Shown piece after piece: positions 10,409 through 63,070 of a DNA stretch of 64,000 nucleotides. The translations under genes were made by a program, and so were the position numbers. The notes beneath the pieces were generated by a model. It worked only from the letters and a program-made list of their open reading frames with translations. It ran no database searches and was not told the DNA's origin. The stretch comes from Ezakiella peruensis (GTDB taxonomy: Bacteria > Bacillota > Clostridia > Tissierellales > Peptoniphilaceae), in NCBI RefSeq assembly GCF_900215725.1, contig NZ_LT962470.1, forward strand, positions 124,001 to 188,000, given 5' to 3'. Position 1 is the first letter of the stretch; each line of letters begins with the position of its first letter.

Positions 10409-10411
10409 TCT

Positions 10412-10740
10412 CCTGGTAAATCTATAAGCCGTGTTCTGTATTAGACAGTTATCTGTCTTGGATATTAGTTACCTAATACCTCTAGCAACCTACCATTCTC
10501 GACTTGCCACGAGCAGCGGCAATTTTGTGTCGCTTCAGTTTTGCTCCGGATGGGGTTTGCATAGCCGATTAGTCGCCTAATCGCTGGTGAGCTCTTACCT
10601 CGCCTTTCCACCCTTACCGCATAAGCGGCGGTATCTCTCTGTTGCACTTTCCTTAGTGTCGCCACCACCGGGGGTTACCCGGCACCCTTGCTCTGTGGAG
10701 CACGGACTTTCCTCTATAAATAGCAACTGTCTGATTTACA
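10412..10740 (-). ncRNA. rnpB: RNase P RNA (bacterial class A-like)
   Basis: On the minus strand the universally conserved blocks appear in the right order and spacing. GAGGAAAGTCCGTGCTCC lies near the 5' end, AGGGTG follows, then AAGGGTGGAAAGGCGAGGTA in the middle, then CTATGCAAACCCCATCCGGAGCA, and ACAGAACACGGCTTATAG sits at the 3' end. These form the catalytic core helix P4 of RNase P RNA, which matures tRNA 5' ends. The 5' end is set from a perfect promoter; the 3' end is approximate. Open frames crossing it are incidental. Confidence 0.95.
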
Positions 10741-10746
10741 TTTTTT

Positions 10747-15033: not shown

Positions 15034-16044
15034 TTAAACCCTTCTAAAACTTGTTGGTAAAAATAATTCCTTAAACTTCTCAATGGCAAATTGGTCTGTC
15101 ATTCCTGCCACGTAGTCTGTGACAATTCTATCTATATCTTCGTCTTTATCATAAATTTTCAAATGGTCGCCCATGTCTTCTGGATGGGACTTGTAATGCT
15201 TATAGAGAGCTTCCAGGAGATTAAATATTTTTTCTCCTTGGACTGATGATCTCTCGTCTTGGTAAACGTTTTTAAACATAAAAGCTCGAAGGCTAAGCAT
15301 GGCCTCTAATGTTGGGTCGGACATCAAAATATCGTCCTTGCCGTAGGAATTTTTTATAATATCCTTGACCAGGTAATCGATCCTGTCGCTGGGATTGTTG
15401 CCCAAAACCTCAGAAATTTCCTTAGGTATGTCTTCGTTTTTTAAAAATCCAGCTCGAATTGAGTCGTCTATATCGTGGTTGATATAGGCAATCCTATCTG
15501 CAAATTTAATTATCTTGCCCTCCAAAGTCGCCGCTTTGCCATCGCCCGAATGGTTCTTGATGCCGTCACGGACTTCCTTGGTAAGATTTAGCCCACGAAA
15601 ATTTTTGTGAGGCTCGATAAATTCAACCACGCGAAGTGAATGCAAATTGTGTTTGAATTCATACTTGCTAATGGTGTTTAATGCATTTTCTCCGCTGTGG
15701 CCAAAGGGCGTGTGGCCCAAATCGTGGCCCAAAGCAATGGCCTCTGTCAGGTCCTCGTTTAGTCCAAGGGCCCTGGCAATAGTCCGGCCGATTTGTGCAA
15801 CCTCAAGGGTGTGAGTAAGCCTGGTCCTAAAATGGTCACCAGCTGGAGCAATATAGACTTGCGTCTTGTGTTTTAATCTCCTAAAAGATTTTGAATGCAA
15901 AATCCTATCCCTGTCCCTTTGAAAATCTGTCCTAATGGAACACTTTTCCTCTTCCCTGTCCCGGCTTGCAGAATCTGAGAAACAGGCGTAGGGCGAGAGA
16001 ATTTTGTGTTCGTTTGCCTCTAGGGTCTGTCTAATATTAGTCAC
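15034..16044 (-). CDS. dgt: Deoxyguanosinetriphosphate triphosphohydrolase-like HD protein
   Basis: The 336-residue HD-domain phosphohydrolase has RLTHTLEVAQ, ALGHDLGHTPFGHSGE and a later aspartate in DRIAYINHDIDD, giving a complete metal site. Family members cleave triphosphate from dNTPs and help control dNTP pools. The GTG at 16044 overlaps the end of the upstream gene (CGTGACTAA); longer starts would overlap more. Its position directly before dnaG is conserved in clostridia. Confidence 0.88.
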   Translation of the reverse strand: MTNIRQTLEANEHKILSPYACFSDSASRDREEEKCSIRTDFQRDRDRILHSKSFRRLKHKTQVYIAPAGDHFRTRLTHTLEVAQIGRTIARALGLNEDLTEAIALGHDLGHTPFGHSGENALNTISKYEFKHNLHSLRVVEFIEPHKNFRGLNLTKEVRDGIKNHSGDGKAATLEGKIIKFADRIAYINHDIDDSIRAGFLKNEDIPKEISEVLGNNPSDRIDYLVKDIIKNSYGKDDILMSDPTLEAMLSLRAFMFKNVYQDERSSVQGEKIFNLLEALYKHYKSHPEDMGDHLKIYDKDEDIDRIVTDYVAGMTDQFAIEKFKELFLPTSFRRV

Positions 16045-16855
16045 GAATACCAAACCTCGCTTCCATGGTTTCAAGAATAATTTCGGCTGTCTCTTCTATG
16101 GCCTTGTTGGACACGTCAATAACTGTGCAGCCCAGCTCATCCATAACTTTTTTGGAATATTCAATTTCTTTTTCAATTCTGTCGGTCTCTGAGTACATGG
16201 AGTTTGCTGGAAGTCCAAGGGCAAGTAGCCTCTCGGCCCTGATTTTCATCATGGATTCCACATTTGTCTCCAAGCCAAAGACTCGTCTCTTATCTTTTTC
16301 GTAAAGCTCGCGAGCAAGGGGAACTTCAGGAACCAGGGGCACGTTTGCCACATAATAACCCTTGTTGGCCAAGTACATGCTAAGGGGTGTCTTACTGGTC
16401 CGGCTGATGCCGACCAAACAAATATCCGCCTTTAACACACCTCTTGGGTCCTTGCCGTCGTCATATTTAACTGCAAACTCAACTGCATTTACTGTTTGGA
16501 AATATTTTTCATCCATTCTCCTCAAAATTCCAGATTCCCTTATCGGGTTGTCGTGGAGGATATTAGAAATTGCAGTCAGAGGTTTTTTCATTATATCGAT
16601 GGTCGGTATGCCAAGTTTCTTGGCCTGGTTCTCGATAAAATCCTGGTGGTCGGTCATAACCGTACTGTAAATTATAACCGAAGGGATGTCCCTAGCCTCG
16701 TCAATTGCCTCTAGGATTTGGTCCTTGGATAAAATATATGGGTATCTCTTGATTTCGTAATTGCAATTGGGAAATTGGGCCAGACAAGCGCGAGCAAGTT
16801 TGGTTCCCGTTTCTCCAACCGAGTCGCTTAGGACAAAAACTGTAATATCATACAT
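16037..16855 (-). CDS. Pyruvate, phosphate dikinase regulatory protein (kinase/pyrophosphorylase, DUF299)
   Basis: The 272-residue protein begins with the family hallmark VFVLSDSVGETG. It carries a P-loop-like LVGISRTSKTP and, further on, GLETNVESMMKIRAERL. Such proteins phosphorylate and dephosphorylate a threonine of pyruvate phosphate dikinase with ADP and phosphate, switching the enzyme. Its place between glyS and dnaG is typical for Firmicutes (yqfL). The target PPDK gene is not in the window. Confidence 0.9.
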   Translation of the reverse strand: MYDITVFVLSDSVGETGTKLARACLAQFPNCNYEIKRYPYILSKDQILEAIDEARDIPSVIIYSTVMTDHQDFIENQAKKLGIPTIDIMKKPLTAISNILHDNPIRESGILRRMDEKYFQTVNAVEFAVKYDDGKDPRGVLKADICLVGISRTSKTPLSMYLANKGYYVANVPLVPEVPLARELYEKDKRRVFGLETNVESMMKIRAERLLALGLPANSMYSETDRIEKEIEYSKKVMDELGCTVIDVSNKAIEETAEIILETMEARFGIRD

Positions 16856-18637
16856 CTATATCCACCTCCCTTCTAAATTATCTGCAAGGACCAGACTGGA
16901 TTTACTGATTTCAGCCTCCTTATAAGAGTCCTTTAGCTTGTAAAATCTATCCTTGTATTCGTAAAGATGGTTAAAAAATTCCAGAGCATCATTGGACTTG
17001 TCACCTGCGTATTTTATTAAATCTGAAAAATCTGATTCAGATTCTGTAAAGTCGCCCTCTACTGGATCACTTGCTCCACCAATCATCTTCTTGTAAGCAA
17101 TGAGGTCTTTTAAAAATTTCAGCTGGTCTTCGTCCTCAATGTTGGACAGGTCTTTTAAATCCATAAATAATTTATTGATGGGCTTGTCCTCTGTTATTAA
17201 AATATCCTCGTAGAAAATATTATTAATATTATTTTTGTAAAGGGTGTATTTAAATTGCCCTTTAAAAATTTCAAAGAGAGATTTAAAAACCTTGTCAAAG
17301 TCAAAAGCGCCCACAGAATTTTCTGCAAAAGCGTAAAGGCTGCTCTCAATCAAGTCCCTCAGGCTAAGCTCTGGCTTGATGCTTATCATTAGCTTCAAAA
17401 TCTCATAGGCTTCTTTGAAGGCCCAGGAAGATTTTATATTGAGCTCACCCAAAATTTCCAGGCCTGCCAAGTCGTGCATCCTGTCGGCTATGGCCAAAAC
17501 CGCACCGCCAATGGTCTCCGGCTCCCGACCAGTAAAATCTGGCAGGTATTGCTCTTTGATTGCATTTGCTGCAGAGGAATTATCCCTGTTTGCCTCAAAA
17601 ATTTCCCCGCCCACTATGCCGCGGAGATTTTCGTAACATTTAACAGTTTGGGTCGCCAAGTCTGCCTTCATAAATTTGCTGGCCAGTCTTATGTTTTCCT
17701 CCATCTCATCAGCCAGCGACAGCTCGTCAACCAGGGAGCCAATAATGGACTCCAGGCGTTTGGTCTTGTCACTCATTGAGCCCAGGCTCTCTATATCTGA
17801 AATCCAAGATAGTTTCGGCAAATAAGCATCCAAAGTTTCCTCTGTATCTTTTTTAAAGAGCCTAGAAATGTTTTTGAGCTCTTCATTTATCATTTCACTT
17901 AAGCTGTTTTTGACTGGTCCAGGATCTGTACCCTCACGGTAAACTATGAGATAGAAATTTGAAATGGCCCCGTCCAAATAATACATGGCAAAAATTACAT
18001 TGTGCTTGTGAAGGACACTTTCGATAATTGGCTCAGGCAGTTCCAAATAGGCCGCATCAAATTCGACTTCAGCAATGGATAGCTTGGAGTCAATCACAGA
18101 TAAGGCTTCCACCCGTTCGTCCTCGTGCATGAGCTTTTTGCCGTTGGCCATGGCCCGTTTTTTAAGGGCTGTGGACATTTTTTCGTAGCCTTCTTTTTTG
18201 TCAGTGTAAAGGTAGGCCTTCATCTTTTCAAAATAATCTTCAGCAGAATCAATATTAATATAGTCTCTAAAATTTATCAGGTTTTGGTCTGAAGATTTTT
18301 TGCCGCCGATTTCTATGTCAAGCTTTTGATCGCCAAAAAAGGCGACTATATTTAAAATTGGCCTATAAAAAGCCTGGTATTCATTGAAGGTGTCAATGTC
18401 GCTTTGCCTAATGGCCTCAAAGACCTGGCCCAAATTTTCATTTAAAAATTCCGCCGAAGTATCCAAACTTGCTGTAACTACGACCCGATTTTTAAAAACC
18501 CTGACGTGGAGGGCGTTTTGTTTAATTTTTTCACTGAGGAGCCAGATGCGAAATTTTTCTAAAATTTCATACTCAACCAAGTCCACAGACTCAGTTCGAA
18601 TGGGCTCCATGCTAACGTCTAAAACAAATTTCTCCAT
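16856..18637 (-). CDS. Degenerate glycyl-tRNA synthetase beta-subunit homologue (GlyS-like)
   Basis: The 593-residue protein lies where glyS belongs and is about 100 residues shorter than typical GlyRS beta. Remnants of the family align in order: VLDVSMEP at the start where LLEIGTEELP is expected; IDSAEDYFEKMKA; ELPEPIIESVLHKHNVIF for the usual PKEVLITTMKTHQ-type block; LPKLSWISDIESLGSMSDKT; and AIKEQYLPDFTG...GAVLAIADRMHDLAG for the EHYLP...ALADKLDTLVG block. The highly conserved TGSKDPFALRR that should follow is replaced by NIKSSWAFKEAYE. The start overlaps the glyQ-like stop (TAATG). It is translated-looking and intact as a frame, so I call it a diverged gene rather than a pseudogene. Aminoacylation activity is doubtful. 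Confidence 0.7.
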   Translation of the reverse strand: MEKFVLDVSMEPIRTESVDLVEYEILEKFRIWLLSEKIKQNALHVRVFKNRVVVTASLDTSAEFLNENLGQVFEAIRQSDIDTFNEYQAFYRPILNIVAFFGDQKLDIEIGGKKSSDQNLINFRDYINIDSAEDYFEKMKAYLYTDKKEGYEKMSTALKKRAMANGKKLMHEDERVEALSVIDSKLSIAEVEFDAAYLELPEPIIESVLHKHNVIFAMYYLDGAISNFYLIVYREGTDPGPVKNSLSEMINEELKNISRLFKKDTEETLDAYLPKLSWISDIESLGSMSDKTKRLESIIGSLVDELSLADEMEENIRLASKFMKADLATQTVKCYENLRGIVGGEIFEANRDNSSAANAIKEQYLPDFTGREPETIGGAVLAIADRMHDLAGLEILGELNIKSSWAFKEAYEILKLMISIKPELSLRDLIESSLYAFAENSVGAFDFDKVFKSLFEIFKGQFKYTLYKNNINNIFYEDILITEDKPINKLFMDLKDLSNIEDEDQLKFLKDLIAYKKMIGGASDPVEGDFTESESDFSDLIKYAGDKSNDALEFFNHLYEYKDRFYKLKDSYKEAEISKSSLVLADNLEGRWI

Positions 18638-19434
18638 TAATTTCCCCTGTAATTTTCAATCAAACTTCCAATTATATCCTTGTAGTTGGAATTTATGCTT
18701 TCAATGTTTTCCTTGTACTTGTCTGAAAAAGTTCCCGTCTTAATCCGGATATATTCGTTCTGAATAATGGCCTTTAGAAGGGTGTTGTAAGCCAAGATGT
18801 ACCTGGCCTTTTCCTTGTGCATCTCAATATCCAAAAAATATCTTTCTATTATCAAATAAAGATTTTCCAAGGTCCCGTCGTCTTCCATATAGTTTTCGTA
18901 CTCGGCGTGCAGGGAATTTTCATAGTGCTTTTCTTCATTAGTTTCTCCCAAAATTTCCCTGATGGCGTCAATATTATACTCAGCTATCTGATTAATATTC
19001 AGAGTTTGCTCGCCCTTGATGGCCTTGGAATAATTAATAGTGGCAACTTCCTTGCAGTTGACAATAAGTATGGTGGAAACAATCAGGGAGTTTGAAAACC
19101 TGGCCTGATATTCCCTGGTCTCATAGGAAATATAATATTTTTCATCATCCAAACCCAATTCATTTAGGCTTGCAATCAGGTCCTTGACATTTAAATCTCC
19201 TTCCTTGGCATAAATTTTTAGTTTATGGGAAAAATATTTTCCGTTTGTATTGGAATTGTTGTAAAGGTCAGCGTAAGTCCCTTCGGTTGCAATGACATGG
19301 CTATCGCCAAAAGCGTACTCAAAAATCTCCTCAGCCGACAAAATATCGCTAGGAATAATTTCTGGCACGGAAATGTATTTAATTTGCCCGTAAGCTTTGT
19401 AGTAGTCAACAATTTTTGAAATGATATTATTCAT
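18637..19434 (-). CDS. Degenerate glycyl-tRNA synthetase alpha-subunit homologue (GlyQ-like)
   Basis: The 265-residue protein sits at the glyQ position after era-recO and is about 30-40 residues shorter than GlyQ. Overall alignment is still visible: IVDYYKAYGQIKYISVPEI at the start, KLKIYAKEGDLNVKDLIASL matching the usual QVVIKPSPDNIQELYLGSL, and a C-terminal helical domain. But the motif-2 block PSRRPTDGRYGENPNR is replaced by ATEGTYADLYNNSNTNG (residues 49-65). The GMEVTQFTYFQQVGG block is lost, and motif 3 (YGLERLAMY) is replaced near residues 147-163. The start at 19434 has GGAGG four bases upstream and overlaps recO by 8 bases. It is unlikely to bind ATP or activate glycine. Confidence 0.65.
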   Translation of the reverse strand: MNNIISKIVDYYKAYGQIKYISVPEIIPSDILSAEEIFEYAFGDSHVIATEGTYADLYNNSNTNGKYFSHKLKIYAKEGDLNVKDLIASLNELGLDDEKYYISYETREYQARFSNSLIVSTILIVNCKEVATINYSKAIKGEQTLNINQIAEYNIDAIREILGETNEEKHYENSLHAEYENYMEDDGTLENLYLIIERYFLDIEMHKEKARYILAYNTLLKAIIQNEYIRIKTGTFSDKYKENIESINSNYKDIIGSLIENYRGN

Positions 19435-20125
19435 AATACCTCCAATTTTTAAGTAATTCATAAGAATTAATTTTATTTAAATCCAAATTCAAGAGGGCAT
19501 AAAAAACTGCCTTGTCCAAGAGGTCATAAGCCGTGTCTTTTATGTCTGCAAAACGCGAATTCATGGCCCTTACCACCATGTCTCTGTCTAGGCTCGTGAC
19601 TGGTAAAATCATCCCCGACGAATCCATTTCATCCAGGCTGACAATACCGCTTTGGCTCAAGTAAAGAGAGCCCTCGCCCATATTTATATAGGGCTTGTAA
19701 CCAAGTAGGCTCAGGTATTTAAAAATCCAAGCCGCCGTTAGATAATATGCGTTTTCCTCTGTCAGATTTTCCAAATAGGTTTTAGTTAGGGGATAAATGT
19801 TAGTCACTTGATATTCATTTTCCAGAGACTTTAAAAGGATTTCAGCCACTATATGGCCGGCAAAAAACACTTTATGGTCCCTGGCCATGGCCTCCATGCG
19901 GACAGTGGATTCAATCTCATCCAAATAATAAATAGTCCGACCCTCTCTTAAAACAAAATTGGTAATGCTCATCGTCTCAAGAGCCGGTGGGTCCACCCAG
20001 TTTTTGTTCCTGTAAATCCTTTGGCAGTTTATGGAAATCTTGCCCAGGTCGTCTGTAAGGACTGTCGCAATAGCGGATGATTCCTTGTATTTTATTAGCC
20101 TCAGAACAATTCCTTCAACCTTCAT
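19427..20125 (-). CDS. recO: DNA repair protein RecO
   Basis: The 232-residue protein has the OB-fold N-terminus (VEGIVLRLIKYKESSAIATVLTDDLGKI) and the helical C-terminal half of RecO, which loads RecA on SSB-coated DNA. The four zinc-binding cysteines found in many RecO proteins are absent: the equivalent region reads INMGEGSLYLSQSGIVSLDE. It directly follows era (one-base spacing), as in most Firmicutes. Confidence 0.82.
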   Translation of the reverse strand: MKVEGIVLRLIKYKESSAIATVLTDDLGKISINCQRIYRNKNWVDPPALETMSITNFVLREGRTIYYLDEIESTVRMEAMARDHKVFFAGHIVAEILLKSLENEYQVTNIYPLTKTYLENLTEENAYYLTAAWIFKYLSLLGYKPYINMGEGSLYLSQSGIVSLDEMDSSGMILPVTSLDRDMVVRAMNSRFADIKDTAYDLLDKAVFYALLNLDLNKINSYELLKNWRYYE

Positions 20126-62914: not shown

Positions 62915-63063
62915 AAGAACGCATAATCCCTAACCCAGATTATGCACTCATAGGGTATCCTGACTCTTTCTTCATCCTTTAGGCCGCCTTCCCACGATTG
63001 CGCAGTGGCCTTGGCCCTCGTCCAAAATACAGTAGAGGTAGCTGTAAGGTTTTTCCTTTTCCC
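62915..63063 (-). promoter_or_regulatory. Cobalamin riboswitch
   Basis: Minus strand: the conserved core appears in order. GGCCACTG (63009-63003) is followed by GGGAAGGCGG (63-bp region around 62987-62993), GATGAAGAAAGAGTCAGGATACC with the B12 box (62966-62954) and a downstream hairpin GCATAATC/GGATTATGC whose loop could be the kissing-loop L13. The nucleotides before it (CCTTACAGCTACCTCTACTG) would form the outer stems. It binds adenosylcobalamin or a related corrinoid and acts through the terminator at 62886-62911. Exact ends are approximate. Confidence 0.9.
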
Positions 63064-63070
63064 CACAACT

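Follow-up and report, generated by a model that had tools for sequence, protein, structure and literature searches.

What keeps the two genes of a glycyl-tRNA synthetase (GlyRS) in place when their products have lost the synthetase motifs and another GlyRS is encoded in the same genome? The question is raised by a 64,000-nucleotide stretch of Ezakiella peruensis DNA (contig NZ_LT962470.1, positions 124,001 to 188,000; the window), in which two coupled genes on the minus strand encode degenerate homologues of the alpha (GlyQ) and beta (GlyS) subunits of the bacterial alpha2-beta2 GlyRS. The alpha homologue lies at 18637..19434 (265 residues from an ATG at 19434 that is supported by a ribosome-binding site) and the beta homologue at 16856..18637 (593 residues). 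Judged from sequence comparison, the pair is descended from the ordinary alpha2-beta2 GlyRS that most of the family still encodes here. We think it slightly better than an even bet (a probability of about 0.55) that the pair is now a non-catalytic binding protein in which the HD-domain cavity of beta holds a ligand, and that the job of this cavity is older than the displacement of the enzyme.

Results

Loss of synthetase motifs and a second GlyRS

The window beta is a GlyS homologue, with matches to PF02092 (E 8.8e-51), to GlyS by hhalign (E 9.6e-81) and to solved GlyRS beta chains, although its 182.1 bits fall below the cut-off of 300 of the glyS NCBIfam equivalog TIGR00211. A preliminary description made from the window alone had both proteins alignable to GlyRS along their length; for the window alpha this needs correcting, since only a profile aligns it to GlyQ. 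Alone, it matches no GlyQ model (including PF02091), and a contig scan with it as the sole query gave 22 pattern matches with no relative among them. Six alpha orthologues taken together align colinearly with GlyQ over nearly the whole length (hhalign probability 97.1, E 5.4e-11), and their profile ranks GlyQ chains first among solved structures (8ie2_B, E 3e-11). Two of the orthologues, from G002 and G004, pass PF02091 with 56.9 and 35.2 bits (cut-off 27). No GlyQ match was found in the window's own genome (G000; 1.67 Mb, 99.96% complete).

Alignment with real GlyQ and GlyS bore out the motif losses that had been described, and added to them. At the place of class II motif 2 in alpha (19240..19290, minus strand, as are all features of the pair) the real GlyQ of the family have SRRPADGRYGENPNR and the window has ATEGTYADLYNNSNTNG; the place of motif 3 (GLER; 18955..18981) reads EYNIDAIRE, in which the motif is not recognisable, and the DNWE..TLGAWG..EVW block, the one with the conserved tryptophan, is also missing. 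Of the residues that are invariant in five real GlyQ, Ezakiella alphas keep 12–16 of 90 in the catalytic half and 7–16 of 54 in the C-terminal half. Within Ezakiella, the C-terminal half (18640..18996) is better conserved than the N-terminal half, with 22% versus 12% of columns identical in at least four of five lineages; in GlyQ the C-terminal helical region is reported to make up 58% of the alpha-alpha interface (PMC4938167, in excerpt). In beta, the TGSQDPFALRR of real GlyS is absent at the place of loop H18-19 and helix H19 (17402..17464), with the loop lost and both H19 arginines replaced (by F and K). In Escherichia coli, according to an excerpt of PMC9908026, U73 and the first four pairs of the acceptor stem are recognised by this loop together with the beginning of the helix that follows. 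The earlier list of beta losses was short: the GP..K..GF..S block is missing too, as are the GHRFLG segment and any recognisable anticodon-binding residues. The window beta has an isoelectric point of 4.7, and real ones have 4.9–5.3.

A single-chain GlyRS elsewhere in the genome had been predicted from these losses, and a search of the genome found one complete gene (G000:C1:361704-363068; TIGR00389, 538 bits joined, cut-off 243). It presumably does the charging in this organism, and with it in the same genome the pair would not be needed for that purpose. The single-chain (alpha2) enzyme belongs to a separate class II family and is not part of the pair; its gene is on another contig than the old locus both here and in G033, a genome with an orphan beta (one without alpha at the locus). 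Neither the window nor the 10 kb surrounding the single-chain gene has an Rfam T-box match that reaches the gathering score.

Retention of the HD-domain cavity in beta

Going by alignment columns, the HD cavity is the best-retained part of beta. The HD-domain core (17453..17842, residues 266–395) has 40% of columns identical in at least four of five Ezakiella lineages versus 14–29% in the other parts of the protein. Seven residues are named as forming the E. coli cavity (PMC8464048, in excerpt); the corresponding stretch of the window (17474..17767) carries K291, R294, K324 (with D326), Y364, D385, R386 and H388 at the positions of E. coli K364, R367, K394 (D396), Y434, D456, K457 and D459. 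According to excerpts of PMC8464048 and PMC9908026, the E. coli cavity is in close contact with tRNA nucleotides 73 and 74, and when some of its residues are altered, charging drops but glycine activation does not.

We then compared retention along the protein, using columns that do not vary among E. coli and seven real GlyS of the family, and counting them in the family's 15 degenerate betas, two of which are cut at contig ends. In E. coli numbering, these betas keep 0–6 of 14 columns at positions 1–120, 0–9 of 17 at 121–230 and 0–11 of 24 at 231–340, then 16–23 of 33 in the HD region (341–465), 1–4 of 8 at 466–540 and 0–2 of 5 at 541–689. Across ten representatives the seven cavity residues have a mean retention of 0.87. 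The 95 other invariant columns average 0.38 (permutation P 5e-5), and the 35 other columns at 341–540 average 0.50 (P 0.0025); the test takes columns as independent, with several representatives sharing ancestry. A third of the columns (34/102) are kept in at most one fifth of the representatives.

Adding four betas from two other families gives 19, and R367, K394, D396 and D456 are present in every one of them, K or R at 457 likewise in all 19, K364 in 17 and D459 in 15 (E in two; H in two, the window's own and a near-copy). Acceptor-stem and anticodon readers are found in fewer of the 19: G473 in 1, D476 in 6, R481 in 10, R482 in 5, R531 in 7 and R585 in 4. The reference set comprised 37 GlyS regarded as real: 31 came from E. 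coli and the order to which Ezakiella belongs, and six divergent ones came from the phylum, the latter accepted on score and length, with GlyQ seen only beside that of G429. All 37 have R367, D396, D459, D476, R481, R482, R531 and R585; G473 is in 36, K364 and K394 in 34, and D456 and Y434 in 33. Three lack K394, and only G429 of these was seen beside an ordinary GlyQ (54% identity). The G429 GlyS (L216:4539-6779) has leucine at both K394 and D456, as does that of G520 (L205). A GlyS next to an intact GlyQ can thus lack K394 and D456, and none of the 19 degenerate betas does. The alpha-contact domains of beta gave no clear signal of being better kept where alpha is kept.

Purifying selection on both genes

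Both proteins are under strong purifying selection. We calculated the ratio of nonsynonymous to synonymous substitution rates (dN/dS, NG86) for one pair of genomes only, that of the window and G005, whose copy of the two genes is 98–99% identical and lies on one contig. Beta has 0.029 and alpha 0.032, values inside the range of 0.017–0.115 seen in the neighbours (ppsR 0.032, dgt 0.034, era 0.017, dnaG 0.060, phoH 0.037, dgkA 0.097 and cdd 0.115; recO is without any difference). Three pairs of orphan-beta genomes give 0.094, 0.090 and 0.109, which is 1.1 to 2.1 times the adjacent ppsR and imprecise at a dS of 0.7–1.3. Alpha and beta frames are open in all six Ezakiella genomes examined, four of them at 21–38% identity to the window proteins. 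In 400 random-substitution runs the beta frame stayed open in 0.5% at 0.05 substitutions per site and in none at 0.1 or more, and the alpha frame in 1.25% at 0.1 and in none at 0.2. Decay was rejected as an explanation on the ratios, the open frames and these runs. Between a repurposed complex and an early-stage relic, the alternatives that had been offered for the pair, the comparison across relatives supports repurposing; the relic was not borne out.

Distribution of degenerate betas and single-chain enzymes

A survey of 130 family genomes, with matches over 500 bits counted as ordinary GlyS and those of 153–243 bits as weak, found ordinary GlyS in 105 (a few with broken frames), a weak beta in 15 and neither in 10. 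Single-chain GlyRS is present in 22, and it never occurs together with ordinary GlyS (0/22 single-chain genomes, 0/105 genomes with ordinary GlyS). The weak betas span six genera with frames open except in G016, where the gene meets a contig end and one stop is crossed. Fourteen of the 22 single-chain genomes have a degenerate beta: six (Ezakiella) with alpha, seven without alpha at the locus, and one (G120) whose contig starts just before beta; the fifteenth, G016 (81% complete), is without a single-chain match. At the seven alpha-less loci (g6, g19, g29 and g31) beta comes directly after the gene at the recO position, which in g6 gave no BLAST match to the window recO, and a PF02091 search of four orphan-beta genomes (G010, G023, G033 and G035) found no GlyQ. 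At 13 family loci the degenerate gene was confirmed also by its position between recO and ppsR. G112 and G116 (65–68% complete) have the single-chain enzyme and no beta match; era was not matched in them either, so their assemblies probably lack the locus.

Among 398 genomes sampled from the phylum we re-examined 11 low-scoring GlyS, leaving aside others with broken or split matches. These included an orphan beta of 619 residues in family f118 (G343) and a second degenerate alpha/beta pair in family f76 (G204, G241 and G367); the remaining seven comprise six that served as real GlyS and a partial match (G384). A scan of 47 loci for the tRNA-Gly discriminator base found no tRNA gene. We found no report of a degenerate GlyQ/GlyS pair or an orphan GlyS in the titles and abstract starts of the best-matching open-licence papers, among the matches listed.

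Separate displacements

In a tree of five neighbour proteins from 44 genomes, some with proteins missing, the single-chain lineages occupy three separate positions. The sister of G033 (100/100) is G021, a genome with an ordinary GlyQ and a genus mate whose GlyS is intact. These neighbour genes reject a single clade of all single-chain lineages (approximately unbiased test, p 1.9e-4) and also a union of G033 with the g6/g19/g31/g21 clade (p 3.7e-6). For beta itself, a position of the G033 sequence beside its sister genus is neither rejected nor demonstrated (p 0.16). Going by these trees, at least two separate displacements are supported, and more than two are likely. In G021 itself (L093:4234-6310) the ordinary glyS is split in two frames; it is whole in the genus mate G118.

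Gene layout and other features of the window

The longest open reading frame of alpha spans 18637-19461 (274 residues), and the ATG at 19434 is a likelier start than 19461 because GGAGG lies just upstream of it. Alpha and beta overlap by one base (TAATG), and ppsR (16037..16855, minus strand) adjoins beta without a gap, its ribosome-binding site lying inside the last codons of beta. The recO gene (19427..20125, minus strand) is upstream, positioned as it is beside glyQS in relatives; ppsR is near glyS in most relatives inspected too. The wider order is phoH-ybeY-dgkA-cdd-era-recO-alpha-beta-ppsR-dgt-dnaG, and a similar order surrounds glyQ and glyS in inspected relatives with ordinary GlyRS, some of which have one more gene separating glyS from ppsR, or are missing cdd or ppsR at that place. 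The conserved position, intact frames, ribosome-binding sites and tight overlap given in the preliminary description were thus all confirmed. A sequencing or assembly artefact is ruled out by the presence of the same pair in six genomes, including G005 and E. coagulans DSM 20705.

The recO genes of the window (19427-20125) and of G005 (L092:4041-4739) are identical over 232 codons where neighbour genes have NG86 dS of 0.08–0.30, reflecting either recent recombination or unusual constraint. Besides the full ppsR, all six Ezakiella genomes have a half-length PpsR-like match (G000:C1:851721-852131 in the window's genome) covering profile positions of about 116–255 in frames of 145–182 residues. 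The window also contains a class A RNase P RNA (10409-10742, minus strand, 256 bits) and a cobalamin riboswitch (62953-63064, minus strand, 49.9 bits).

Discussion

We propose that the synthetase motifs of the pair were lost while charging passed to a single-chain GlyRS encoded elsewhere, and that what would remain is a beta subunit whose HD cavity binds a ligand, acting as a sensor, adaptor or chaperone and not as an enzyme. Because the E. coli cavity lies close against nucleotides 73 and 74 of bound tRNA, we rank the 3' end of an RNA as the likeliest ligand, followed by a small molecule that carries phosphate. As far as alignments go, the RNA end is favoured by the arginines that some orphan betas keep, and the small molecule by the loss of stem contacts in Ezakiella together with its acidic beta. 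The dead alpha of Ezakiella most likely serves beta as a dimerising scaffold, given that alpha is best kept in its C-terminal half, and the beta of other genera would work without alpha. Two narrower roles that had been suggested for the pair appear unlikely: glycine sensing, because the alpha active site is gone and alpha is absent from the locus in related genera, and a strict tRNA-Gly reading in Ezakiella, where the U73/acceptor loop and the anticodon residues are gone. The job of the cavity would predate displacement and is probably a second function of ordinary GlyS. More tentatively, and at somewhat less than even odds, ordinary bacterial GlyS in general may have such a non-charging function of the HD cavity, which displacement by a foreign single-chain GlyRS encoded at another locus leaves behind when it strips away the synthetase, in at least two and perhaps five parallel separations.

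Several observations weigh against the proposal of an old, retained cavity function. Within the cavity, Y434 is lost in 6 of the 19 degenerate betas (kept in 13), and in the window beta the D459 position has changed from D to H; conservation of the cavity might also be structural instead of ligand-related, although three of the GlyS regarded as real do without K394. The betas of f76 and f118 came to light through homology to PF02092; since this homology lies mostly in the HD region when a beta is degenerate, their cavity retention is subject to ascertainment bias. The acidic Ezakiella beta and the loss of most tRNA-stem contacts do not favour the RNA version of the proposal. The function can be lost, as genus g21 has single-chain GlyRS and no beta match in 6/6 genomes; in all four loci inspected (L116, L117, L118 and L119) recO is followed by dnaG, with beta, ppsR and dgt missing. 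The one g21 genome searched keeps a ppsR elsewhere. Outside the family, 24 genomes of the order's other families were examined: nine carry single-chain GlyRS, and in these neither GlyQ nor beta was matched; in eight of the nine the single-chain gene is within 1 kb of a ppsR gene, which suggests that in these eight it replaced glyQS on the spot. As to parallel separations, grouping Ezakiella with the g6/g19/g31/g21 clade is not rejected (p 0.10), so a separate Ezakiella origin is not established, and the beta tree groups the family's 15 degenerate betas (97/96), so that independence rests on the neighbour-gene tree. The 21 family single-chain enzymes compared likewise form one group. The grouping in these two trees would be explained by long branches, by spread of the single-chain gene from one family member to another, or by an ancestor with both enzymes.

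The main rival is a partner-protein role: ordinary GlyS would already have a second task, its HD domain making structural contact with the product of a neighbouring gene (PpsR, RecO or Era) or with some other complex, and the remnant would be kept for this contact, the cavity being no more than its scaffold. This would account for the retention of beta with its tRNA contacts mostly lost, for ppsR directly following the degenerate beta at all 15 family loci inspected, window included, and for the joint loss of beta, ppsR and dgt in g21. The neighbourhood, however, is ancestral, the f76 and f118 betas have no ppsR match in the stretch fetched, and the eight order-level single-chain genomes just mentioned have ppsR without a beta match. 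Conserved charged residues in the cavity would in addition point to a bound ligand and not to an outer contact surface, and we regard this role as unlikely.

Activity of other kinds finds much less support. PoxA is a class II synthetase relative with another ligase role. Relatives of class II synthetases do take on such roles, asparagine synthetase A being an example (PMC9437257, in excerpt), and the pair might thus still be an aminoacyl-tRNA synthetase or adenylate-forming ligase of altered chemistry, with a moved active site or another amino acid. With so few of the 90 invariant catalytic-half residues left in Ezakiella alpha, motifs 2 and 3 gone, and related betas kept without alpha at the locus in four genera, we consider this very improbable. 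Reversion of the HD domain to a phosphohydrolase acting on nucleotides is scarcely more than negligible: the domain has the HD fold, and that of E. coli is reported in the excerpted PMC8464048 to be similar to PgpH and SpoT/RelA, but the His-Asp doublet of HD hydrolases is X-K, with X never His, in 19/19 degenerate betas, and Pfam gave no HD-domain match in the window beta. This candidate was rejected on the missing doublet. The least credible account is that the pair is a functionless relic in slow decay that will be lost. It would fit the loss of active-site motifs, tRNA loop and anticodon residues, the disappearance of alpha from the locus in related genera and of everything there in g21, but not ratios of 0.03 for both genes and 0.09–0.11 for orphan betas, frames open after deep divergence, or residue-specific conservation of the cavity.

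The non-catalytic binding protein that we favour shares with alpha2-beta2 GlyRS common descent, locus and HD-cavity residues, but lacks motifs 2 and 3, the acceptor-stem loop, recognisable anticodon residues and the GP..K..GF..S block, which is deleted, and its genome has another GlyRS for charging. A functional likeness may be to HisZ, the regulatory subunit of HisG derived from histidyl-tRNA synthetase (HisRS), a non-catalytic class II offshoot without adenylation (PMC9437257, in excerpt). Like such offshoots, the pair combines absence of the adenylation motifs, as far as sequence alone can tell, with purifying selection. HisZ, however, is a paralogue beside HisRS, whereas the pair is the displaced orthologue itself, in two subunits, and its best-kept part is the tRNA-binding beta and not the catalytic fold.

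If our proposal is right, the pair would be an unusual case of a synthetase that was displaced, not duplicated, and kept for another role. Proteins of this kind are apt to be annotated wrongly, either as functional GlyRS subunits or as hypothetical proteins. The HD cavity is one of the most conserved surface patches of GlyRS beta, and lineages that have the cavity and do no charging with it would make its purpose directly testable, free of an essential synthetase.

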